From a virus, in IMG/VR virus record IMGVR_UViG_3300043437_000372, positions 1 through 21,078 of that record: a stretch of DNA of 21,078 bases, one strand, 5' to 3'. Below are positions 9,318-14,948 of the stretch, piece by piece. Position 1 is the first letter of the stretch, and each line of letters opens with the position of its first letter. Below the pieces are notes generated by a model. It was given only the letters and a program-made list of their open reading frames with translations. It was not told the DNA's origin and ran no database searches. The position numbers and the translations under genes are program-made.

Positions 9318-10025
9318 GGACACGAATTGCATCAGGGCATATCGGAGGTCCGGCCCGGTGTAGGACGGGCTTTTCATCAGCTTCCCGTCCTGATTCTTGA
9401 TGCGGTAGCACCGGTCACCGGTCACGCCTGCGACCTTGGTTTCGGTCCACTTTAGACTCTCGATCTTTAGCTGGTTGTCATGCACCTCGGGCAGCGTCCA
9501 GAGCTTGGTGTCATTGCTGGCGCACACAGCGCCCAGAGCGTCCCAGAATTGCACCGAGTAGTACGTAGACAGCGCGATCAGATCCAGCAGCACCGCCTTG
9601 GCATCAGAGGCCTGCAGCTTGTCCGTATCCTCCACCCCCTTGATGAACAGGTCGACACGTCTCTCAAGGGCAAGCACGTTCATGTCGGTTGACCTCGAGA
9701 ACGAGATGTTGTCGAGCGTGACGCCGTAGGCGTTAAGAAGACCTAGAATCGTGAAAGCCACGTCACCGATATCATCGGCGACATTTTCTCGGATGTTGTC
9801 GATCTTTTTGGTGATGCCCTCCTCGAACAGTGCTGGAACCGAACTGAGCAGTTCGTTGTAGGTGGCGGCGTGGATAATGTACTCGTCATACCACTCGGAC
9901 TTTACGAACCCCAACTGCTTCTTGCAGAACTCGGGATCGCGTTGCGTTGGCGTCTTCGTAACGGGCTGGGCTGCGACATCGCGCTGCCAGTTGTAGACGC
10001 GCTCTTGGTAGGATCTGATTTTCAT
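9309..10025 (-). CDS. MazG-like NTP pyrophosphohydrolase
   Basis: This 238-aa protein has the acidic helices of the all-alpha MazG/phage dUTPase-like superfamily: GFVKSEWYDEYI (about 39-50, Glu 44 and Glu 48) and IRENVADDIGDVAFTILGLLNAYG (about 78-101, with Glu 80, Asp 84, Asp 85 and Asp 88 as likely Mg ligands). Family members hydrolyse (d)NTPs to NMP and pyrophosphate; phage copies may adjust nucleotide pools or (p)ppGpp. The substrate is unknown. The C-terminal region (about 165-238) is an extra domain that I do not recognise. The ATG overlaps the DnaB stop (ATGA), and its end overlaps promoter copy 3. Confidence 0.78.
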   Translation of the reverse strand: MKIRSYQERVYNWQRDVAAQPVTKTPTQRDPEFCKKQLGFVKSEWYDEYIIHAATYNELLSSVPALFEEGITKKIDNIRENVADDIGDVAFTILGLLNAYGVTLDNISFSRSTDMNVLALERRVDLFIKGVEDTDKLQASDAKAVLLDLIALSTYYSVQFWDALGAVCASNDTKLWTLPEVHDNQLKIESLKWTETKVAGVTGDRCYRIKNQDGKLMKSPSYTGPDLRYALMQFVSLT

Positions 10026-11344
10026 TCGTCGAATAGTGATGCTGGGTCGAATCGTGTGAGCTCTGGCCTGAAGCTGAACGGGATGTCCACCCCTGCCTGA
10101 CCCGCCCGTTGCTTGGCGATGAACAGGTTGATTCTCCTCGGTCCAGATTGGGTAGCCTCTGAGTCTTGTTGCTCAGCTGGGTAGAGCATTCCGACAAGGT
10201 CGGCATCTTGCTCAATGGCACCTGACTCGCGCAGATCGCTGAGCCGGGGTTTTCGGTTTCCATCACGCTCAATGGCGCGGTTCAGCTGGGCCAGAAGCAC
10301 GATCGGTATCTTGAGCTCTTTGGCCAGCAGCTTCATGTTTCGGCTGATCGCATCGATCTGTTCGCGCCTCTCCTTGCCCTCAGAGGCCGTGATCAACTGC
10401 AGGTAGTCGATCGCAAGTACCTTCAATCCTGAAGATCGAACCCAGCGACGCGCCTTGGCAGCGATGCTCTGAGCGGTCTGGTTGGGCTTGTCGTTGACCA
10501 TGATCTTGTGACGGGCAAGCCGACTTGTAGCTGTCGTTAGCTTCCTGAGCTCGCCCTCGTTCGGCTGGTTGCGCTCGTCGTACCGCCCGACATCCACCTG
10601 AGACTCGATTGCCAGCATTCGCATGCCCACCTCCTCGGCGCTCATCTCGAGGCTCACGAACCCCGTCTGCACGCCGCTTGAACAGAGTGAGGTCAAAAGA
10701 CTCAAGGTGAACGCCGTCTTGCCGGCACCCGGGCGACCAGCAACCACGAACACCTGACCCGGACGCAGTCCTCCCCTGAGGATTCTGTCCATGAAGGTCC
10801 ACCCAGTTGGGATGGCGTCGCTCTTGCCGGCACAACGCTCCTGAATGAGGTCGATGGCCGAAGTGGCTATCTGCTTGGCGGTGAAGTCGCTGTCAACGGA
10901 GTGCTCATTCCTGATCCCCATCAGTTTGGCTTCAAAACTGTCCAGCACCATGTCCACCTTGGCAGCCCCGGAATAGGCCGTGTTGATGGCCTCTTGCGAG
11001 ATCTCAATGAGCTTTCTGGCCCGCTGTTTGTCCCGTGCAATGTCCAGATAGTAGGGGAGGTTTGATGCGCTCGGAACAGCGTCCATCGCCTCAGACACGA
11101 ACGCAATCCCGCCTACACGGTTGAAAGAGTCGCCCTTGAGCCGGTTCGCGATCGTGACCATATCGATCGGAATGCGGTCGTCCCGCATCTTGATGATGAT
11201 CTCCCACAGGTCATGGCATCGAACATCGTAGAACCAGTCCGCCTTGATGCCTCCGTTTATCGCGTCATCAATGGCGTTGTTGTTCAGCAAACAGCACCCT
11301 ATCACGCCAAGTTCGGCTTCTTGTGAGAACGGAGGCTCTCTCAC
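10022..11344 (-). CDS. dnaB: Replicative DNA helicase, DnaB-like
   Basis: A 440-aa DnaB-family helicase that unwinds DNA at the phage replication fork as a hexamer. The N-terminal DnaB domain is at about 1-105 (EAELGVIGCCLL and ADWFYDVRCHDLWEII). The RecA-like core has Walker A GRPGAGKT at 203-210, FVSLEMS (about 229-235), Walker B IDYLQL at about 312-317, LLAQLNR, and ARL-type RLSDLRESGAIEQDAD. The C-terminal part ends AKQRAGQAG...FRPELTRF. Length is normal for phage DnaB. The start is a GTG overlapping the stop of the preceding gene (GTGA). It lies right after a DnaD-like gene, the usual arrangement for loader plus helicase. Confidence 0.96.
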   Translation of the reverse strand: MREPPFSQEAELGVIGCCLLNNNAIDDAINGGIKADWFYDVRCHDLWEIIIKMRDDRIPIDMVTIANRLKGDSFNRVGGIAFVSEAMDAVPSASNLPYYLDIARDKQRARKLIEISQEAINTAYSGAAKVDMVLDSFEAKLMGIRNEHSVDSDFTAKQIATSAIDLIQERCAGKSDAIPTGWTFMDRILRGGLRPGQVFVVAGRPGAGKTAFTLSLLTSLCSSGVQTGFVSLEMSAEEVGMRMLAIESQVDVGRYDERNQPNEGELRKLTTATSRLARHKIMVNDKPNQTAQSIAAKARRWVRSSGLKVLAIDYLQLITASEGKERREQIDAISRNMKLLAKELKIPIVLLAQLNRAIERDGNRKPRLSDLRESGAIEQDADLVGMLYPAEQQDSEATQSGPRRINLFIAKQRAGQAGVDIPFSFRPELTRFDPASLFDE

Positions 11345-12213
11345 TTGGTGTTTCCTCCAAGCTGAGCCTTGAGTTGGAAGTACCGCTCCTTCATGGCTGC
11401 AAACTCCTGCTTCTGCGCCTCGGTCACCAGATCTCCGAACATCGCCTCATGCCGAGGGTTCGCTACGTGCGCAGAAAGCCGCTCCACGAGGTTTTTAAGC
11501 TCATCTGGGGTGGAGACAGCGGACTTGGCATCAGGACGCGCCATTGGGGCTGTAGCGCCCCAGTTGTTCATCAACGCCAGCGGAGTCAGGATTGCGTCAC
11601 GATAGATCCGCCGATAGCCAGCGACGTGAGCATCGATCATCTCCTTGGTCAGGCTGGGCTCGACCTTCTTGATTCCGGCCAGAGCAACCGCCACCCGCTT
11701 CCACTCGCCCTCGGTCATGCGGCTGGTGTCCGATCCGCAAGCCTTGGCCAGATGGTCCGCAAGCTCGTTCCTTGGGCGCTCTTTCGCGGCATCGCCGCTC
11801 TCTTTCTTATGGTCTTCTTCTATAGTATTCTTAGGTGACGGCTTTCCAGTTACTGGAAACCCGCACTGGTTTTCCGCGCATAAAGGGGTGTTTTGCGCGG
11901 ATTTCCAGTCAGCGGTGGGAGTGTCGGTAAAGGTCCAAATTCGATTTGAAAACCGTCCGTCAGCAGCCGTGTCTGTTTCCTCAAGGGATGCGTACCCAAG
12001 CTCTTTGAGCTCATTGAACACGGCCGCGATGGCGTCACGCCCCTCGCAGCAATGCTCAGTTACCCACGCTTTGGTAACGACCCATTCGTCCATATTGGAC
12101 AGGATCATGCACAGGAGCCCCTTGGCGCGAAGAGACATCTTCTTCCGAAGAAGTTCGTTTGGGATGATGGTGAATCCGCCCTGCTGTCGCTTTACTCGGA
12201 TGATGGTTTTCAT
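11341..12213 (-). CDS. DnaD-like replication protein with winged helix
   Basis: This 290-aa protein starts with a winged-helix/HTH_36-type domain (about 10-75: FTIIPNELLRKKMSLRAKGLLCMILSN, then AWVTEHCCEGRDAIAAVFNELKELGYA), as found in phage replication initiators. A Ser/Pro/Lys-rich linker follows (about 95-150), then a helical C-terminal part (about 155-230) ending in GATAPM. Its place immediately before dnaB suggests origin binding or helicase loading (inference from context). The ATG has no Shine-Dalgarno and lies 9 nt after a terminator-like hairpin, so expression is probably controlled by the leader upstream. Confidence 0.82.
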   Translation of the reverse strand: MKTIIRVKRQQGGFTIIPNELLRKKMSLRAKGLLCMILSNMDEWVVTKAWVTEHCCEGRDAIAAVFNELKELGYASLEETDTAADGRFSNRIWTFTDTPTADWKSAQNTPLCAENQCGFPVTGKPSPKNTIEEDHKKESGDAAKERPRNELADHLAKACGSDTSRMTEGEWKRVAVALAGIKKVEPSLTKEMIDAHVAGYRRIYRDAILTPLALMNNWGATAPMARPDAKSAVSTPDELKNLVERLSAHVANPRHEAMFGDLVTEAQKQEFAAMKERYFQLKAQLGGNTK

Positions 12214-12222
12214 CGGTCGTTG

Positions 12223-12246
12223 AAAAAGCCCGTTTCAGTGAACGGG
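12223..12246 (-). terminator. Terminator-like hairpin before the replication genes
   Basis: On the - strand a CCCGTT/AACGGG stem (arms 12246-12241 and 12234-12229, loop 6 nt) is followed by C and five T. It ends 9 nt before the DnaD-like ATG at 12213. This placement fits an attenuator rather than the end of an operon. Confidence 0.65.
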
Positions 12247-12354
12247 AAAAAAGAACCCCACGTAGTCCGAGGGGGAGAGATCGCTGGGGCGGATCAGCGA
12301 AACCTCGGAAAACGTGGGGCAAAAAACTGTGATTGAACCGCGCCTATTGAACAC
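12235..12354 (-). CDS. Possible 39-codon leader ORF
   Basis: A GTG at 12354 is preceded by AGGAG (12367-12363) at 8-nt spacing and opens a 39-codon frame that crosses the long hairpin. It stops at TGA 12237-12235, which lies exactly in the loop of the terminator-like hairpin. The peptide has no recognisable domain (MFNRRGSITVFCPTF, then a Ser/Pro-rich middle and GFFFPVH). The value is in its position: translation through it would disrupt both hairpins. It may equally be a chance frame. Confidence 0.35.
   Translation of the reverse strand: MFNRRGSITVFCPTFSEVSLIRPSDLSPSDYVGFFFPVH
12247..12319 (-). terminator. Long three-part hairpin with U-tract
   Basis: Nested stems on the - strand: CCCCACGT/ACGTGGGG (12319-12312 with 12263-12256, 8 bp), TCCGAGG/CCTCGGA (12309-12303 with 12272-12266, 7 bp) and TCGCTG/CAGCGA (12300-12295 with 12286-12281, 6 bp). 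Small internal loops separate them and the terminal loop is 8 nt. TTC and six T follow (12255-12247). This could be a terminator, or the body of a structured leader RNA or small RNA. Confidence 0.6.
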
Positions 12355-12377
12355 CCTCGGCTCTCCTCTCACCGATC

Positions 12378-12434
12378 GCCGAAGACACTGACCTTGTAAT
12401 ACACCGCAGACAACCTGTCAACAGTGTCTTCGGC
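12378..12434. repeat. 13-bp inverted repeat framing promoter copy 4
   Basis: Perfect arms GCCGAAGACACTG (12378-12390) and CAGTGTCTTCGGC (12422-12434) enclose 31 nt that contain the whole promoter copy 4. The right arm begins at the base after the -35, inside the last codons of the RuvC-like gene. A read-through transcript from the upstream operon would fold this into a 13-bp stem; a transcript from the enclosed promoter could not. Confidence 0.75.
12393..12421 (-). promoter_or_regulatory. Promoter copy 4 (imperfect palindrome)
   Basis: On the - strand TTGACA (12421-12416), 10 nt, then GGTGT-ATT-ACAAG (12405-12393). The register is the same as in copies 1-3, but the last two bases of the palindrome are changed. 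The -10 at 17-nt spacing is TACAAG. The TGA stop of the RuvC-like gene lies inside the -35. It would start a transcript near 12384 that runs through the leader toward the DnaD-like gene. Confidence 0.7.
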
Positions 12435-12900
12435 CGTACTCCCAGATCAGGAGGGAGTCGGATGTCTTGAGCGTGATCGGAATGCCCGGAAAGAGCTCCT
12501 GAGCACGGCCCTTGAGCTTGTTCTTCCACTCTGTCTTGGAGAGTCCCTTGGAGTTTCCAAGCCCGAGTTCCTTCTGCCACGTCTGCGGAGGGACGCGCTC
12601 GATGCGGTATCCGAGAGCCATGGCGGCACCAAGGACGATACCGAAATTTTCAAACATCACTGCAGCCATTGAGCCGGGTATTCCCTTCCCGCCACCCATG
12701 GGCACAAACCGTGGAAGCTGCTCGATGTGAAGAACAGTGTATCCCTTCAGCACTAGATCGCCCAAGAGCTTGACCGTATCAGTCGGCTCCTGAGGCATTG
12801 GCACTGCGGTCATCGGTCCATCGCCGTTTTTCCATGCAATGCCTCCTGAGGCACCCGGGTCGATGGCAATGTGCCAGTAGTCACTTGGTGGGTTGATCAT
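12418..12900 (-). CDS. RuvC-like Holliday junction resolvase
   Basis: This 160-aa RNase-H-fold protein shows the RuvC pattern. First strand AIDPGASGGIAW has the first acidic residue Asp 14. VLHIEQLP has Glu 60. The GYRIERVPPQTWQKELGL block (about 97-114) is typical, and TSDSLLIWEYG near the C-terminus gives the final Asp 148. Such enzymes cut branched DNA, resolving recombination or packaging intermediates with Mg ions. The length is normal for phage RuvC-like nucleases. It overlaps the preceding Zn-protein gene by 20 nt, and its own stop lies in promoter copy 4. Confidence 0.85.
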   Translation of the reverse strand: MINPPSDYWHIAIDPGASGGIAWKNGDGPMTAVPMPQEPTDTVKLLGDLVLKGYTVLHIEQLPRFVPMGGGKGIPGSMAAVMFENFGIVLGAAMALGYRIERVPPQTWQKELGLGNSKGLSKTEWKNKLKGRAQELFPGIPITLKTSDSLLIWEYGRRHC

Positions 12901-13120
12901 CGGAGAATGCTTCGGGTGGGTAACTGATAAGGCCTGCTTTCACCATGCGTTCCATCATCGGCCAGTTTGGACCACGGCGCGGATCGGCGTTGCACTTGGG
13001 TGCGTACCAAAGTTTGCGGGCGCACTCAACGCAGGTTGGCCTGCCCGACCAGAAGTTTTTGGTCGGCTGAGTGCGCCCGCATCTGATGCAGGTTTTCGTT
13101 AACTCTTCTTTTTGGCCCAT
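12881..13120 (-). CDS. Small zinc-finger-like protein, 79 aa
   Basis: The protein contains CIRCG (about 11-15) and CVECAR (about 30-35), a CxxC-x15-CxxC zinc ribbon like those in phage HNH-associated or replication accessory proteins. It continues with a Trp/Pro/Met-rich tail (GPNWPMMERMVKAGLISYPP). The HNH catalytic residues are not present, so nuclease activity is not supported. The ATG at 13120 overlaps the exonuclease gene by 22 nt, and its end overlaps the RuvC-like gene. It may help one of these enzymes bind DNA (inference from context). Confidence 0.72.
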   Translation of the reverse strand: MGQKEELTKTCIRCGRTQPTKNFWSGRPTCVECARKLWYAPKCNADPRRGPNWPMMERMVKAGLISYPPEAFSDDQPTK

Positions 13121-14061
13121 TCGGGAATGGATACACGACCGCGCACGCCATTTAGAGGGCGCTCCCAGACATCAGTCTTGAAGCACTCTGCGAGAGTTTC
13201 GAGGTGACGCTTGTTGATGGCTCGACCGGCCTCGATTGAATCCGTGTCGAGTTCGAGAGTGATGCAGACGTACGGAGGTAGTTTTTCAGCCACAATGAAG
13301 ACCCACTGACTCTTCTTAACATGAGTCGTGAATGGGTCGTCAGTCGCCGTCAGCATGTTGTACAGATCGATGTACCACGCAGCCTGTTGAGCGTAGCCCC
13401 ACTTCTTGATGGAGTAGGAGAAGTCGTCAGGATTTGCATAGCCTCGATCTACGGTCTTGAGGTCGGCGATCACCTCGGCATTTTTGCTCTTCGGGTCACA
13501 GATGATATCAGCCTTACCCTTGATGCGAATCTTGCGCCCGTTGACCATGATGGTCTTGAACATGGCAACCTCTTTCATCGCGCCACTCATCAGCTGCATG
13601 GCGTCAGGATTCAACTGAACACCACCAGTGATACCACTGATCTGAGTAACCTCATCCTGAGAAAGCATGGTCTTGTGGCCGTGCTCTTTGTTCCAATCTT
13701 CCCACCACTTGATTGCAGCGATCGTTTCGTCGCTTGGTTTCTTGGCGTTGATCTGCGCCGACGTTGGTTTCCTTGGAGCATCGACCGGCTCAAGAACTAC
13801 CTGTTTGGCGTATTCTTCCGCCTCAAGAACCGACAGGTGAGTCAGAGTTCCAATGTACTGAGCGCCCGTCTGCTCAGCACGGTATCCTCCGAACTTCTTG
13901 GAGTAGAAGTGGGCAGGCGAAATAGACATCTCCTTCAGGTCAGAGATCGCGATTGCTGGGTCACGCCTGTACACCGTTTCGTCCAGCAGATGATGGATTC
14001 CATCTGGAACAAGAGTCGGCTCCAGAAACAGAGGAACAGCTTCGGTAGATTGAGTTTCCAT
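13099..14061 (-). CDS. PD-(D/E)XK exonuclease, RecE/Cas4-like
   Basis: This 320-aa protein follows the phage RecB/RecE-type nuclease plan. AISDLKEMSISPAHF (about 38-52) is the substrate-gate helix and GTLTHLSVLE (about 71-80) holds conserved His 75 and Glu 80. KGKADII has active-site Asp 185 and VIADLKT has Asp 200 and Lys 202. WGYAQQAAWY has Gln 225. Such nucleases trim double-stranded DNA ends 5'-to-3' to feed annealing recombination. It lies directly after a Sak4-like ATPase, consistent with a recombination module. The start ATG has no Shine-Dalgarno and sits in a GAACTGAACC-ATG context that recurs at 16769. Confidence 0.88.
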   Translation of the reverse strand: METQSTEAVPLFLEPTLVPDGIHHLLDETVYRRDPAIAISDLKEMSISPAHFYSKKFGGYRAEQTGAQYIGTLTHLSVLEAEEYAKQVVLEPVDAPRKPTSAQINAKKPSDETIAAIKWWEDWNKEHGHKTMLSQDEVTQISGITGGVQLNPDAMQLMSGAMKEVAMFKTIMVNGRKIRIKGKADIICDPKSKNAEVIADLKTVDRGYANPDDFSYSIKKWGYAQQAAWYIDLYNMLTATDDPFTTHVKKSQWVFIVAEKLPPYVCITLELDTDSIEAGRAINKRHLETLAECFKTDVWERPLNGVRGRVSIPEWAKKKS

Positions 14062-14081
14062 GGTTCAGTTCAATCAACGTG

Positions 14082-14948
14082 TCAGGCTGTGGCCTTGGCG
14101 AGGAATGCGGTCGTGTTTGACAGGATCTTCTCGGCGTTGGTTACAGACAGATCCCGGAATGTTTGACCTTCTTTGATCCACCCAAGCGTGACGAGGAACG
14201 TGTTGGCCTTGGGTTCATTAGCGCCGATGACAGCGGTCAACTGCGTCTTCCATAACGGCTCACCACCAGACAGACGCCATGCTTCAAGCTGCGCACCGGT
14301 CTCCTCTGTAATCTGGAAGATCTTGTCAACGAAGAGGCCAGAGCGGTCCTTGCTGACAGCGGCCTGATGGTTGAGAGCCACGTCGAACACGGTGGTGAAC
14401 TCGTATTCGATTCCGTCGCGCATGATCGGTGCGAGGCCGACCTTCTTGATCTGAGTCTTGCCGCGGTCGTCCTTCTCTTGAACGTAGTCCATCTTGGATC
14501 GCATGCAGCAGATGACGTGGGCTGGAGACTGAAGCACGGCCTTGACGATTCCGCCGAACTTATCGCCAGCAATCTTCCAGTTGGTGTAGGAGTTTCCTCC
14601 GCGCTGATCGAGCTTGTCTTTGTAGTCGAGGATTCCTTCCCAGAAGTGCGACGCGCTATCGATGACGATGGCACCATACCCAGCTTCGACAGCCGCGTTG
14701 ACCCCATCGACGAACTTCTCGTTGTCGAACGGAGGAGCAATATCGAGCGTGTCAAAGTCGAAGCGGTCAGCGTACAGGGACGCAGAACGATTCTCGGTAT
14801 CGATGAGCGCGATCTTGCCGCTGGGTCCAACAAGACCCCGAGCGAGTCGCAGCGACGAGTAGGTTTTTCCGGAGCCGGACGGACCAGTGACCGCGAGTTT
14901 CAGGAAGACCTTCTCGCGGGTTGCTTTGCGAAACAGTGGTGTAGACAT
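14082..14948 (-). CDS. Sak4-like RecA-fold ATPase
   Basis: This 288-aa AAA/RecA-core ATPase has Walker A GPSGSGKT (22-29), a conserved IDTEN (about 49-53), Walker B AIVIDS (93-98) and a SASHFWEG continuation. The rest matches phage Sak4-type proteins: ICCMRSK (about 148-154), then KVGLAPIMRDGIEYEF. Sak4 proteins are single-strand annealing partners of phage recombination that act with an SSB. The C-terminal part (about 230-288) is a small helical domain with NAEKILSN. It is first in the recombination unit that follows promoter copy 5, with a roughly 30-nt leader holding a small hairpin and no clear Shine-Dalgarno. Confidence 0.9.
   Translation of the reverse strand: MSTPLFRKATREKVFLKLAVTGPSGSGKTYSSLRLARGLVGPSGKIALIDTENRSASLYADRFDFDTLDIAPPFDNEKFVDGVNAAVEAGYGAIVIDSASHFWEGILDYKDKLDQRGGNSYTNWKIAGDKFGGIVKAVLQSPAHVICCMRSKMDYVQEKDDRGKTQIKKVGLAPIMRDGIEYEFTTVFDVALNHQAAVSKDRSGLFVDKIFQITEETGAQLEAWRLSGGEPLWKTQLTAVIGANEPKANTFLVTLGWIKEGQTFRDLSVTNAEKILSNTTAFLAKATA

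Follow-up and report, generated by a model that had tools for sequence, protein, structure and literature searches.

A conserved structured RNA at the ruvC/rep junction of uncultured phages, a candidate pseudoknotted terminator of the replication operon

The put RNA of phage HK022 is, by analogy and as far as the cited account describes it, the closest functional parallel to the element presented here. In that account, put is an RNA of ~70 nt with two stem-loops, occurs in two copies per genome and acts via the zinc-binding domain of the RNA polymerase β′ subunit, with one copy (putL) lying just downstream of the early promoter, where it lets polymerase pass terminators before the phage genes (PMC9378689). 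The element compared here lies in a 21,078-nt stretch of viral DNA (IMG/VR record IMGVR_UViG_3300043437_000372, positions 1 to 21,078; hereafter the window), and has phage RNA stem-loops (P1 and P2) after a predicted transcription start, with predicted terminators upstream of phage genes. In contrast to put as described there, however, the RNA is ~140 nt, is present in one copy, and has an internal terminator-like hairpin and a proposed pseudoknot. Since size, copy number and topology differ from those given for put, we do not class the element with the put RNAs.

Pseudoknotted transcription attenuators provide a second comparison, with ZTP-type riboswitches, for example, forming a loop-to-stem pseudoknot by the terminator hairpin. 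A pseudoknot beside a terminator hairpin would similarly couple folding with termination in the element described here, whereas, unlike ZTP-type riboswitches, the element matches no Rfam riboswitch (window at E ≤ 5, five relatives at E ≤ 1) and is directly followed by replication genes only, with no ligand-related gene. Phage small RNAs with intrinsic terminators are likewise a known class, and the element resembles these in its own promoter-like motif, its length, its U-tailed end and its exposed conserved loops, but differs in directly adjoining an essential operon for which no separate promoter is seen.

The genes of the region are read from the minus strand in the order Sak4-like ATPase family protein, exonuclease VIII-like protein, small Cys-rich protein, RuvC-like resolvase, inverted repeat, replication initiation protein (Rep) and DnaB helicase, with those at the junction placed as follows.

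12418–12900, minus strand: RuvC-like Holliday junction resolvase gene, the last of the upstream recombination operon
11341–12213, minus strand: replication initiation protein gene (rep), the first after the RNA, its ATG 9 nt past the U-run of hairpin T2
10022–11344, minus strand: DnaB-like replicative helicase gene (dnaB)

Positions 10500–14500 gave no match at all against 50,697 phage records. Relatives of the resolvase were found at 74 loci in IMG/VR, 20 of which (L003–L022, 71–100% identity) share the junction, save L018, which is cut off within ruvC. A profile of the small Cys-rich protein recovered 24 viral loci and one bacterial locus, with six of the viral loci (L200–L205) forming a sister group in which ruvC again lies 3′ of the Cys-rich protein gene. 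Sak4-like and exonuclease genes are also present on two of these contigs (L146 and L111, the contigs of L200 and L204), and their dnaB is only about 30% identical to that of the window. The Cys-rich protein itself (79 aa, 12881–13120, minus strand) has two CxxC pairs, is 61–66% identical between the two phage groups, and has no Pfam or PHROG match.

A first-pass annotation of the junction had pointed to a perfect 13-bp inverted repeat framing a promoter, and had proposed that transcripts arriving from the recombination operon would fold both arms into a stem, whilst those starting at the enclosed promoter would carry one arm, free to pair with GCCGAGG, giving a possible operon-dependent switch. 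The repeat is confirmed in the sequence, in the orientation claimed, with GCCGAAGACACTG at 12378–12390 (plus strand), its exact complement at 12422–12434, and 31 nt between the arms. These 31 nt consist exactly of a 29-nt motif copy on the minus strand (12421–12393) and two bases (12391–12392), with the base next to TTGACA being the first of the right arm.

12422–12434, minus strand: 5′ arm of the repeat, also the final codons of the RuvC-like gene (..GRRHC)
12393–12421, minus strand: motif copy 4, right half degenerate (ACAAG), a probable phage promoter
12378–12390, minus strand: 3′ arm of the repeat, of which 12378–12386 is the 5′ strand of the conserved hairpin P1

The 13-mer of the repeat is absent from the rest of the record. 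A perfect 13-bp repeat is unlikely to arise at random in a window this long, with 40 dinucleotide shuffles of the window giving a mean of 0.025 perfect inverted repeats of at least 13 bp with loops of up to 100, and none with a loop of up to 40. The window holds two such repeats, the other being a perfect 14-bp repeat with a 39-nt loop (13015–13028/13068–13081) inside the neighbouring small Cys-rich protein gene, where its arms are the codons of the two Cys motifs.

Comparison of the arms in relatives, on which the first-pass proposal had been made to depend, went against the 13-bp stem as half of a switch, with the arms varying without matching change and the intact repeat missing from each of the 12 other distinct relatives. 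A perfect repeat is confined to the window, L003 and L004, the latter two being identical to the window there. L005 and L010 carry CAGCGTCCTCGGC facing an unchanged 5′ arm, leaving two uncompensated A·C mismatches, and L006 and L009 also have two mismatches, with 11 of 13 positions pairable in L006, L009 and L011. The seven remaining distinct rows, outside this subclade, retain 4–8 of 13, giving a range of 4–11 of 13 across the 12 other distinct relatives. In alignment A1 (13 rows, without L224), the inter-arm stem has 5 pairs changed on both sides compared with 4.4 in shuffles (233 of 500 shuffles as high), and is 67.5% paired, slightly above the 63.8% of shuffles (13 of 500 as high). Partition-function folding of the window sequence gives the inter-arm stem a probability of 0.89 and P1 0.07, so that the long stem would beat P1 in the window, and in L003 and L004, as the switch supposes; the stem has a probability of 0.00 in all 12 other distinct rows, however, and the changes found in these relatives break pairs rather than restore them. 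An operon-dependent leader switch is accordingly very improbable. Judged from these comparisons, the inverted repeat is not conserved as a functional unit and is a quirk of one phage lineage; as it is near-perfect in the closest subclade, one or two substitutions would have been enough to perfect it. The repeat could nonetheless act in the window phage's own lineage, as an effect specific to it.

The 3′ arm of the repeat opens a predicted conserved structured RNA of ~140 nt, at about 12386–12247 on the minus strand, which runs from P1, with its near-invariant loop, through a variable linker to P2, with an apical P3, and a U-run.

12353–12386, minus strand: hairpin P1 (CUUCGGC..GCCGAGG), with covariation and the near-invariant loop GAUCGGUGAGAGGAGA
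12366–12370, minus strand: GAGAG of the P1 loop, unvaried in all 12 distinct sequences, proposed from the sister-group analogy to pair with CUCUC of the P2 bulge
12254–12321, minus strand: long hairpin P2 and apical P3, with covariation and the invariant 3′ bulge GCGAUCUCUCCCC
12275–12279, minus strand: CUCUC of the P2 bulge, unvaried in all 12 distinct sequences, the proposed pseudoknot partner of the P1 loop
12247–12255, minus strand: U-run UUCUUUUUU straight after the GGGG of P2, with intrinsic-terminator anatomy, largely kept in relatives
12222–12246, minus strand: T2, a second small terminator-like hairpin (CCCGUUCACUGAAACGGG, CUUUUUC), present in many relatives

The alternative stem that the first-pass annotation drew between the 3′ arm and GCCGAGG is P1, and is upheld, being conserved with covariation. 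In alignment A6 (12 distinct sequences, 36 pairs), 97.2% of cells are paired compared with 92.7% in shuffles and 39–50% in slid controls, and 11 of the 36 pairs have changed on both sides compared with 4.2 in shuffles, with 0 of 500 shuffles as high by either measure. Several pairs of P2 are replaced on both sides in L010 and L021. By covariation, P1 and P2/P3 are thus established as conserved RNA helices. A6 comprises 12 of the 21 RNA-bearing records; outside it, L003, L004, L007, L008, L015, L020 and L022 looked identical to rows that were kept, and L009 and L011 differ slightly from L006.

G·U pairs are frequent on the minus strand, with pair 10–29 being GU in 7 of the 12 sequences of A6, and the covariance model gives the minus strand of the window 152 bits, compared with 19 bits for the plus strand. 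Together, these strand preferences argue that the structured form is a minus-strand RNA. A DNA element, for instance an origin of replication or an operator palindrome, might be expected from the position of the site beside replication genes, but both the one-sided G·U pairs and the strand bias of the model speak against it, making this explanation scarcely credible.

The RNA is found at the ruvC/rep junction of the window, of 19 IMG/VR contigs and of one Verrucomicrobia MAG contig (L224). A strict pattern finds it in 19 contigs, one copy each, these being the contigs of L003–L022 minus L018, and has 0 matches in genome contigs; L224, which was found by protein search and carries the RNA, has base changes that the pattern disallowed. 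In a search of 55 chosen sources, a subset of the loci, the covariance model matched 11 relatives, with one forward copy in each. The RNA is kept though the adjacent Rep protein drops to 53–61% identity. No family of Rfam 15 is matched at the gathering score, with sub-threshold hits only, and literature searches found nothing on such an RNA; by these searches and Rfam, the RNA is previously undescribed.

The ruvC junction of the sister group (L200–L205) carries a different RNA, in which a very stable 31-bp hairpin is preceded by a small hairpin (GGG-loop-CCC) with loop bases complementary to those of the long hairpin's 3′ bulge, forming a pseudoknot of 7 pairs. In alignment A5, with five distinct sequences from all six sister records but L201, a duplicate of L200, these 7 pairs are 100% paired and 4 have changed on both sides, the variants being UUCGCAC/GUGCGAA, GUAGCAC/GUGCUAC and GUAGCGU/ACGCUAC. 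The two elements are alike in occupying the same gene junction and in the pairing of an upstream hairpin loop with the 3′ bulge of a long hairpin. In contrast, they have no detectable sequence similarity, with the R1 model giving no match to L200, L202, L204 or L205 at E ≤ 1, and the sister junction has no promoter motif. Moreover, the 31-bp stem of the sister RNA includes its U-rich tail, and this pairing makes termination in the sister group doubtful. No credible Rfam match was found for the sister RNA.

The sister pseudoknot suggests that the P1 loop GAGAG pairs with the P2 bulge CUCUC in the main group, a pairing that we infer by analogy; both segments are present in all 12 distinct sequences of A6 without any variation. 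An extended pseudoknot, GGAGAG/CUCUCC, was rejected, as it is broken in L016 and L017 (G to A) and in L224 (GGAGAG lost). A local alternative hairpin outcompetes P1 in the folds of L016 and L017 (P1 probability 0.02). A classical antiterminator between the 3′ strand of P1 (CCGAGGG) and the 3′ strand of P2 (CCCUCGG) was also rejected, being visible by eye in the window but lost, again by eye, in L010, L016 and L021. Similarly, a leader peptide from a conserved GTG/ATG in the P1 loop was set aside, since neither length nor frame is kept among relatives, with the reading frame running for 9 to 54 codons or beyond 80 and the invariant block falling in frames 0, 1 and 2.

The motif between the arms, TTGAC-N11-GGTGTNNNACACC, recurs on the minus strand of the window, each time shortly before an ATG.

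9317–9289, minus strand: motif copy, ATG at offset 36 (9281)
8875–8847, minus strand: motif copy, ATG at offset 42 (8833)
4915–4887, minus strand: motif copy, ATG at offset 41 (4874)

The two phage groups together have 40 distinct exact copies, 5 of which precede the RNA, and the first ATG lies at offset 36–42 from the motif start in 31 of the 35 non-RNA copies, compared with about 10% for any position. If TTGAC serves as the −35 element, the start of transcription would fall near offset 36, leaving the mRNAs leaderless or nearly so, and ribosome-binding sites are scarce by eye, consistent with leaderless mRNAs. At the RNA copy, P1 starts at offset 35, beside the range of the ATGs, and the predicted transcript start is at about 12385 on the minus strand. 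The motif is therefore probably a phage promoter family giving nearly leaderless mRNAs, and the first-pass annotation was right to place a promoter-like motif between the arms; the promoter function is deduced here from the constant spacing of motif and start codon. The copy-4 site is missing from the output of a simple sigma-70 scan, and the −10 region of the motif is not sigma-70-like, with a palindrome sitting where the −10 would be. The right half of this palindrome is degenerate in the window, L005, L006, L009–L012 and L014, and intact in L013, L016, L017, L019, L021 and L224. Its degeneracy at the RNA copy suggests that this copy may have escaped the control of a palindrome-binding factor. 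A host regulon for the motif was rejected, the only exact match in Verrucomicrobia MAG G013 being on the phage contig, with one one-mismatch match elsewhere.

At the 3′ end of the RNA, the sequence has the G+C-rich stem followed at once by a U-run that characterises intrinsic terminators. A simple terminator scan (loops of 3–8 nt) lists only T2, the loop of which reads GTTCACTGAAAC, and a sub-stem of P2; T2 is missing from L010, L013, L016, L017 and L224. While P2 with its U-run, and T2, resemble tandem terminators, plain intrinsic termination separating two operons, the leader hairpin having no particular role, would leave unexplained the invariant P2 bulge and P1 loop, the covarying sister pseudoknot and the expression of rep, and is distinctly improbable. 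The invariant block lies 44–75 nt from the rep start in relatives, and the interval from the U-run to the rep ATG is free of motif copies in the distinct main-group relatives aligned. Given this spacing and the lack of a motif copy, rep and dnaB appear to need readthrough, which favours a conditional terminator.

There is, in our estimation, an about even chance that the RNA is a pseudoknotted conditional terminator, a leader of the replication operon governing readthrough into rep and dnaB. Transcription would be initiated from the phage promoter motif that the arms enclose and proceed into the structured RNA, with the P1 loop GAGAG docking on the P2 bulge CUCUC during RNA synthesis. The docked fold, by itself or together with a factor from phage or host, would then set the frequency of termination at P2/T2 relative to readthrough into rep and dnaB. 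The default product would be the ~140-nt RNA, and readthrough would switch on the replication genes. Transcripts from ruvC could additionally mask P1 via the perfect repeat, in the lineage of the window alone.

The main rival to this conditional terminator is a trans-acting phage small RNA, comprising its own promoter, P1, linker and terminator hairpin, whose loops GAUCGGUGAGAG and GCGAUCUCUCCCC would pair with target mRNAs, with rep and dnaB expressed by leakage or from upstream. The predicted start and U-tailed end bracket an RNA of ~140 nt, its most conserved bases are those of the single-stranded loops, with the linker variable, and there is one copy per genome. Additionally, the first ORF of at least 100 aa in L204 starts about 0.2 kb beyond the RNA, so that the sister element is not bound to a single long gene lying immediately next to it. 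A small RNA acting in trans does not, however, account for the position of the RNA immediately 5′ of the rep start in all the distinct main-group relatives aligned, where a spare promoter motif is lacking, and this reading, though possible, is unlikely.

The one bacterial locus (L224) comes from MAG G013, which is labelled Verrucomicrobia. Contig 311 of this MAG (L224/L228) contains 6.6 kb of phage sequence, with 93% identity to L016 across the compared part, and joins it to chromosomal genes (parA, a phoH-like gene and others, named by eye), a join that represents either a prophage edge or an assembly chimera. Among 387 Verrucomicrobiota genomes only G013 matched, the 386 others giving no match under stricter filters. 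Verrucomicrobia are, on this sequence evidence, the likely host. Within the conditional-terminator reading, a fuller picture may be drawn, that of a new class of phage RNA in which the upstream hairpin loop docks into the terminator hairpin as an RNA-only gate, the RNA by itself determines how much transcription reads on into the replication operon, and two sister groups, probably a lineage of Verrucomicrobia phages with mostly leaderless promoters, have kept the architecture whilst replacing all of the sequence; taken as a whole, this picture is unlikely.

The best-known examples of control by RNA folding at a terminator come from a small number of lambdoid phages. Should the leader reading hold, these uncultured phages would also control their replication genes in this way, and the element supplies a covariance model, a clear pair of bases to mutate, and a promoter signature for gene finding in the group.
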